From an uncultured Flavobacteriales bacterium (GTDB taxonomy: Bacteria; Bacteroidota; Bacteroidia; UBA10329): 38,506 nt of DNA. The position numbers and the translations under genes are program-made. Positions 34,945-37,528 of the stretch are shown one piece after another. The stretch covers positions 1-38,506 of the forward strand of contig CALCGD010000226.1 of assembly GCA_937900875.1 (NCBI GenBank). The letters run 5' to 3'. A model generated the notes under the pieces. The model worked only from the letters and a program-made list of their open reading frames with translations. It made no database searches and had not been told where the DNA came from. Within the stretch, counting starts at the first letter, position 1; each line of letters begins with the position of its first letter.

Positions 34945-35652
34945 TCATTTACCCAATAAGAACATACAAGGCCGCTTATGGATGTCAATTTTCATGGCCT
35001 TCCATTCATCAATGGCTAATGTTTTTATTTGCTCGGATTCTAGCGTTATATCTACCGCCACACACAGTTTGTGTTTGGCGTTGCAGGTTTTCAAGATGTC
35101 GTCAAACATGGCTTGGTTACGGTACGGAGTTTCCATAAAAATCTGCGTGTCTCCCGTCTTTGCAACCCGCGAATCGAGTTCGCGCAACTTATGAATCTTC
35201 TCTTTTTTCTCTATCGGTAAGTAGCCGTTAAACGTAAATCCTTGCCCATTCAACCCACTAGCCATTAGCCCGAGTAGGATGGAGGAAGGCCCGATTAACG
35301 GAACCACCTTAATGTTGTACAAATGGGCTTCGGCCATTAAAATCTGACCTGGATCTGCTACGCCTGGGCAACCCGCCTCAGACATTATTCCAACATCTTT
35401 TCCTTGCAATAGCAGCTCAATTGGTCTCGAAATTTCATCGCGTCTCGTTCGCTTATCAAGTAGAATCAACTCCAATTTGTTGAAATCTCTTTTGTTTCCA
35501 GTAGAGCGGATGAATCGTCTTGCCGTCTTTTCGTTCTCAACAACCATGTAATCCAACTCTTCCAGCAATCGAAGATTTATGGCTGGGAATAACCTATCGT
35601 TATTCGTTTCTCCCATCGAAACAGGAATTAGGTACAATATCCCTGTACTCAT
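34945..35652 (-). CDS. TP-methylase-fold SAM-dependent methyltransferase (RsmI-like)
   Basis: ILYLIPVSMG..., FIRSTGNKRDFNKLELILLDKRTRRDEI, GKDVGIMSEAGCPGVADPGQILMAEAH, PLIGPSSILLGLMASGLNGQGFTFNGYLP. Confidence 0.9.
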   Translation of the reverse strand: MSTGILYLIPVSMGETNNDRLFPAINLRLLEELDYMVVENEKTARRFIRSTGNKRDFNKLELILLDKRTRRDEISRPIELLLQGKDVGIMSEAGCPGVADPGQILMAEAHLYNIKVVPLIGPSSILLGLMASGLNGQGFTFNGYLPIEKKEKIHKLRELDSRVAKTGDTQIFMETPYRNQAMFDDILKTCNAKHKLCVAVDITLESEQIKTLAIDEWKAMKIDIHKRPCMFLLGK

Positions 35653-36094
35653 TTTATCGTTTTAATGAAAGAATTGCATGCGTAATCCAAAAGTTCGTAC
35701 ACCCGGCCAAAACCATCATCATAATACGGGTCTGGAACAGATTTGCCTTTTACTTCATTTCCAAAATCAAGTATCAAATGCACCTTGGCCTTGTCATTCT
35801 CATTTCTTGCCATTGCAAGATAGAAGTGTCCATCACCAGAATATGGTCGAACTTATCAAAATCCCCGAGTTTGAATTGGCGAGACCGCTGACCTGAAATG
35901 TCGATTCCATTTAGCGTCATTTCTGCCAAGGCTCGTTCGTCAGGGCGTTCATCTTGATGCCAGTTAGAGGTACCTGCACTGTCTACAAAAAGAGCAAGGC
36001 CCGAAAATCGGGCCTTGCGTTTAAGAATGCCTTCGGCCATTGGGCTTCGGCAAATATTTCCTAGACAAACCATTAACACGCGGTTCGCGCTCAT
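35649..36094 (-). pseudogene. Low-molecular-weight protein tyrosine phosphatase, frameshifted (two frames)
   Basis: Frame 1 (36094..35774): VLMVCLGNICRSPMAEGILKRK...DKFDHILVMDTS then IL QWQEMRMTRPRCI stop. The other frame resumes (about 35822..35649) YLAMARNENDKAKVHLILDFGNEVKGKSVPDPYYDDGFGRVYELLDYACNSFIKTIK stop, with an ATGA overlap with the next gene. Confidence 0.85.
35988..36018 (-). terminator. Intragenic terminator-like hairpin inside the LMW-PTP gene
   Basis: Minus strand GCAAGGCCCGA-TTT-TCGGGCCTTGC (perfect 11-bp stem) followed by TCTTTTTG. Confidence 0.55.
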
Positions 36095-36097
36095 GGC

Positions 36098-37528
36098 TTA
36101 CGAGAGTTTTATCTTCTTATCAAGGTCTGCGATGTAACCGCGGAACTGCTTGTCAGTTTCAATCAGATTGTTCACCGTTCTGTAGGCGTGCAATACTGTT
36201 GCGTGATCTTTTCCACCACACTGAGCACCAATAGTTGCTAAAGACGCCTTGGTCATGTTCTTAGCATAGAACATTGCAATCTGACGAGCCTGAACAACTT
36301 CGCGCTTTCGTGTTTTAGATTTCATCAATTCAATTGGCATATCGAAGTAATCCGACACCACTTTCTGAATGTAATCTATGCTGATTTCGCGCGCTGTGTT
36401 CTTCACAAACTTGTCAATCATCTGCTTGGCAAGATCCAAGTTGATTGACTTTTTGTTTAACGATGCCTGAGCAAGTAGCGATATTAACGCTCCTTCCAGT
36501 TCTCGGATATTCGTAGTAATGCTGTAGGCAAGATATTCGAGAACTTCTTCTGGAAGTTCAATTCCATCTTGGTAAACCTTCTTGCGAAGAATTGCAATTC
36601 TAGTTTCTAGTTCTGGCGATGACAAATCAGCAGCCAATCCCCACTTAAAACGAGACAGTAATCGCTGCTCCATTCCTTGCATTTCTACAGGAGCTTTGTC
36701 GCTGGTTAAAACCAACTGCTTTCCGTTTTGATGAAGGTGATTGAAGATGTGAAAGAAAACGTCTTGCGTCTTCTCTTTACCAGCCAAAAACTGAACATCG
36801 TCCATAATTAGCACATCTATCATTTGATAGAAATGCACAAAATCATTGTGGTTGTTGTTCTTAACGGCATCGATAAACTGATGCGTGAATTTTTCTGAAG
36901 AAACGTAAAGAACTGTCTTAGAAGGGTCTTTCTCTTTTATCTCAATACCAATGGCATGAGCCAAATGCGTTTTTCCAAGGCCAACTCCTCCATATAAAAG
37001 AAGCGGATTGAAAGCCGTTCCACCAGGTTTGTTTGCCACTGCGTATCCGGCTGAGCGAGCCAAACGATTGCAATCTCCTTCAATAAAGTTGTCGAAGTTG
37101 TAATTAGCATTAAGTTGAGATTCAACCTTTACCTTTTTAAGACCTGGAATAATGAATGGGTTTCTGATTGCATCAGATCTTCCAAGATCCATTGGCATTG
37201 TAACAGGACGATTCTTGGTAGTAGCAGAGTTTGTTGGTACGCGAACAGAATATGGCTTGGTAGAGTTGTAGCCATTCTCCATAATTATCTGGTACTCCAA
37301 TCTTCCGTCAGCACCAATTTCCTTTTTTACTGTTTTTTTCAGCAAAGAGATGTAATGCTCCTCCAACCACTCATAAAAGAACTGACTAGGCACTTGAATT
37401 GTTAACACTTTGGCGTCTAACTTAACAGGAACTATGGGTTCAAACCATGTTCGGTAACTCTGATATGGGACGTTATCCCTAATTACCTCCAGACAATTGT
37501 CCCATACTACCTTACAGTCTTTCTTCAT
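36098..37528 (-). CDS. dnaA: Chromosomal replication initiator protein DnaA
   Basis: NYNFDNFIEGDCNRLARSAG, LLLYGGVGLGKTHLAHAIG Walker A, VLIMDDVQFLAGKEKTQ, LLSRFKWGL, GGKDHATVLHAYRTVNNL. Confidence 0.98.
   Translation of the reverse strand: MKKDCKVVWDNCLEVIRDNVPYQSYRTWFEPIVPVKLDAKVLTIQVPSQFFYEWLEEHYISLLKKTVKKEIGADGRLEYQIIMENGYNSTKPYSVRVPTNSATTKNRPVTMPMDLGRSDAIRNPFIIPGLKKVKVESQLNANYNFDNFIEGDCNRLARSAGYAVANKPGGTAFNPLLLYGGVGLGKTHLAHAIGIEIKEKDPSKTVLYVSSEKFTHQFIDAVKNNNHNDFVHFYQMIDVLIMDDVQFLAGKEKTQDVFFHIFNHLHQNGKQLVLTSDKAPVEMQGMEQRLLSRFKWGLAADLSSPELETRIAILRKKVYQDGIELPEEVLEYLAYSITTNIRELEGALISLLAQASLNKKSINLDLAKQMIDKFVKNTAREISIDYIQKVVSDYFDMPIELMKSKTRKREVVQARQIAMFYAKNMTKASLATIGAQCGGKDHATVLHAYRTVNNLIETDKQFRGYIADLDKKIKLS

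Follow-up and report, generated by a model that had tools for sequence, protein, structure and literature searches.

The gene order around dnaA in this window (38,506 nt, the whole stretch of DNA analysed) raises the question of whether an LMW-PTP gene that is read in two frames was inactivated by a real deletion, was broken in the assembly, or still yields a working enzyme. The window comprises an entire contig (C226) of a draft genome of 355 contigs and 3.6 Mb. On its minus strand, dnaA is followed by a single LMW-PTP gene (PF01451; 36094-35649) and then by a TP_methylase-family gene (Table 1). The LMW-PTP gene had been predicted to be frameshifted, and it was indeed found in two frames, each matched by the Pfam profile LMWPc: the 5' piece over profile positions 1-95 of 144 (2.4e-24, 86.6 bits; cut-off 23.2) and the 3' piece over positions 98-143 (8.3e-5, 23.3 bits; cut-off 23.2). 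Jointly, the two pieces cover nearly the full profile. The 5' ORF encodes 106 aa, the C-terminal end of which reads ILVMDTSILQWQEMRMTRPRCI before a TGA stop at 35776-35774. The other frame reads HFYLAMARNENDKAKV...VPDPYYDDGFGRVYELLDYACNSFIKTIK and carries AMARNENDK...DPYYDDGFG...IK up to its stop at 35649. In LMW-PTPs, the Cys and Arg of the P-loop act together with a later Asp in a DPY-type loop. The general-acid Asp loop (DPYYDDGFG) is still encoded in this gene, but not in the same polypeptide as the catalytic P-loop, CLGNICRS, which lies near the N-terminus of the 5' piece and has the C(X)5R motif of the family (PMC8863745); both segments were seen in the frames to which the original prediction had assigned them.

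Table 1. Features of the dnaA / LMW-PTP / TP_methylase row in the window
Feature	Coordinates	Strand	Basis
dnaA, 476 aa, intact, directly upstream of the LMW-PTP gene	36098..37528	-	ORF, Pfam
LMW-PTP 5' fragment: CLGNICRS; register kept through MDTS, followed by 15 out-of-frame residues and a TGA stop	35774..36094	-	ORF, Pfam
Site of the 13-nt gap seen against all eight congeners	35820..35821	-	Alignment, sequence
LMW-PTP 3' fragment in the other frame: DPYYDDGFG (general-acid Asp motif) and family C-terminus	35649..35816	-	Pfam, translation
TP_methylase-family gene, 235 aa, intact; related to RsmI, not RsmI	34945..35652	-	ORF, Pfam, NCBIfam

The nature of the break was examined by comparison with eight other genomes of the genus (G001-G008), in all of which the gene follows dnaA and occupies one open frame of 153-174 codons. 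The 5' part is 68-89% identical to that of the congeners, with the highest value in G005 (89% over 92 residues). In the nucleotide alignment, the window sequence (440 nt, compared with 453 nt in the congeners and 456 nt in G008) showed one clean gap of exactly 13 nt between 35821 and 35820, the solely other indel being one codon near the 3' end in G008. Between TCT (Ser of MDTS) and CTT (Leu of LAMARN), the window has AT alone, whereas the congeners have five codons of the form N-x-x-x-V. The 2-nt spacing noted in the original prediction and the single deletion of about 13 nt deduced from it are therefore borne out, and the family norm given there (NYxxV, about 15 nt) holds for this genus, the eight close relatives being longer by 13 nt or more and each in one frame. 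The unbroken state extended to a wider set, 110 additional relatives drawn from the class and from outside it, searched with separate queries for the two parts: both parts were found in one frame in 106 of them, the short query for the C-terminal part matched nothing in the remaining 4, and in none of the 110 did the parts lie in different frames. Within the short flanks available for these loci, 62 showed dnaA on the upstream side and 58 showed the methyltransferase on the downstream side.

The age of the lesion was assessed from the constraint on its two halves, in comparisons for which synonymous sites were near saturation. Relative to the nearest congener, G005, pN was 0.072 and pS 0.61 in the 5' part (pN/pS approximately 0.12), and 0.092 and 0.59 in the 3' part (approximately 0.16). 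The intact pair G003-G005 gave 0.068/0.50 (0.14) and 0.092/0.70 (0.13) in the 5' and 3' parts, respectively. Neither half showed an excess of amino-acid changes or gained stops relative to intact homologues; therefore, the halves have been uncoupled for a small part of their history, or never. The lesion, if real, would be very recent, because its halves are constrained like those of intact pairs and no stop has been gained.

The reading we favour, with a probability of roughly 60%, is that the LMW-PTP gene was recently inactivated by one real 13-nt deletion, an ordinary event. Such a deletion would have hit the single LMW-PTP gene of the row; the downstream methyltransferase is intact. Translation would then give a 106-aa product with the catalytic P-loop and without the DPYYD general-acid loop and the C-terminal third; from what is known of the family, these losses are predicted to make the product inactive. 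What was observed directly is the break, the size of the gap, the unbroken relatives and the undecayed halves; we infer that the deletion is present in the living organism and that the activity has been lost. The family can be missing, since 15 out of the 215 good genomes examined from the class gave no match to it. Rescue by a second copy was rejected: the DNA of the region is unique in the genome, no second intact LMW-PTP was found there, and the sole other match was a sub-threshold one (20.7 bits) in a 404-aa frame. A search of a plasmid collection with the region also gave no match. Deletion between direct repeats was likewise rejected as the route, since no direct repeat of at least 8 nt was present within 60 nt of the junction in the window sequence as it stands.

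The strongest alternative is a local assembly or strain-consensus error, by which 13 nt of a gene intact in the organism would have been lost in the assembly. The break is known from one genome only, and that genome is a fragmented draft; all relatives are intact, and neither half has decayed, a state in which an artefact would look the same. Many putative pseudogenes are in fact assembly artefacts, and pseudogenes made in this way are common (PMC11017572). The locus shares its single indel, its otherwise undecayed sequence and its restriction to one genome with ordinary recent pseudogenes and assembly-made ones alike. Against an error, a survey for frameshifts using congener ORFs (198 queries with a match of at least 45% identity, covering approximately 125 kb of 528 kb of the genome) gave the LMW-PTP break, found with four congener queries, as the only convincing case in this aligned coding DNA. 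The assembly is thus accurate overall, and a general sequence error is unlikely, because only one convincing frameshift was met in approximately 125 kb. A clean loss of 13 nt is, moreover, not a typical sequencing-platform error; the overlap zone has no homopolymer run of the kind that causes such errors, and the lack of a direct repeat around the junction also argues against an artefact. Taken together, a local error is a distinct possibility, though one that we hold to be somewhat doubtful.

Frameshifts spread across the assembly were not seen in this aligned DNA and were rejected; the sole other candidate, near a contig end (L154, 209-476; G000:C20), is probably non-genic. This stretch showed apparent multiple frameshifts and contains peptides of the GFEPATSCSQSR/RIRTCDLLLPKQA type, which we take to be a widespread and notorious spurious-ORF repeat and not a gene. 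As a separate observation, an apparent frameshift on which several congener queries agreed was seen in G006, where it affects the homologue of a neighbouring gene of approximately 427 aa (L133, near G006:C2:39200).

Two readings would preserve a function for the divided gene. In the first, the fragments are translated separately, the second from an internal ATG at 35813 that opens the entire C-terminal part, and assemble into a working enzyme. Both fragments are still conserved, but recency accounts equally well for this; the break also falls inside a segment found in all congeners, with at least 4-5 residues lost, and no relative has a split gene. Reinitiation at ATG 35813 would by itself give the C-terminal piece alone, without the P-loop. 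It is accordingly very improbable that the fragments cooperate as a split LMW-PTP, and a role of the truncated P-loop fragment as a non-catalytic phosphotyrosine binder is to be placed with it. The second, programmed -1 ribosomal frameshifting that joins the two frames, draws on their overlap (shift zone 35774-35855) and on the conserved sequence of both, but is so unlikely as to be negligible, because that zone contains no X XXY YYZ slippery heptamer in any frame and no homopolymer run of at least four, and all relatives are unbroken (none of the 8 congeners and none of the other 110 relatives has the two-frame arrangement), while even a perfect shift would leave the product four residues short in a region of equal length in every congener. 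Of the three readings offered in the original prediction, recent inactivation is hence the one preferred, recoding was rejected (slippery site, homopolymer run and two-frame relatives all being absent), and an assembly error stays in contention.

Nothing at this locus points to a new way of reading genes, and the event is of an ordinary kind. Beyond annotation its importance is small: one species has probably lost, in the recent past, the sole LMW-PTP detected in it, in a genus of which the rest keeps the gene. A real lesion would make this species naturally phosphatase-null beside its intact congeners.

The name given to the adjacent methyltransferase also needs correction. Its description as RsmI-like in the original prediction was borne out as far as membership of the TP_methylase family goes, but not as RsmI. 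The neighbour should not carry that name, because it scored 86.4 bits against NCBIfam TIGR00096 (RsmI), below the cut-off of 167.9, while RsmI proper is encoded on another contig (G000:C164:28291-28950; 236.8 bits). The predicted coupling of the two genes is retained in the second frame, the start of the methyltransferase overlapping the end of the LMW-PTP 3' frame through an ATGA (35652-35649), as it does in G001-G004 and G008. Within the stretch compared, the methyltransferase lies 3' of LMW-PTP in seven of the eight congeners. A short protein of this family (235 aa) follows LMW-PTP in approximately half of the relatives examined with short flanks.

A terminator-like hairpin was also observed inside the LMW-PTP gene, in its 5' part (36018-35994, minus strand), about 80-104 nt past the dnaA stop. 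It has a perfect 11-bp stem with 8 GC pairs, followed by TCTTTTTG; the 61 nt around it fold at -25.8 kcal/mol (z -4.4), and only 2-3 of 2000 synonymous redraws equalled it. The stem is present at 8-11 pairs in five of the eight congeners (G001, G003, G004, G005 and G008), has a mismatch in G002 and is not kept in G006 and G007; a covariation test on the hairpin was not significant. It resembles the other terminator-like hairpins of this genome and, as a lead, may be a candidate dnaA terminator or attenuator that overlaps the next gene.
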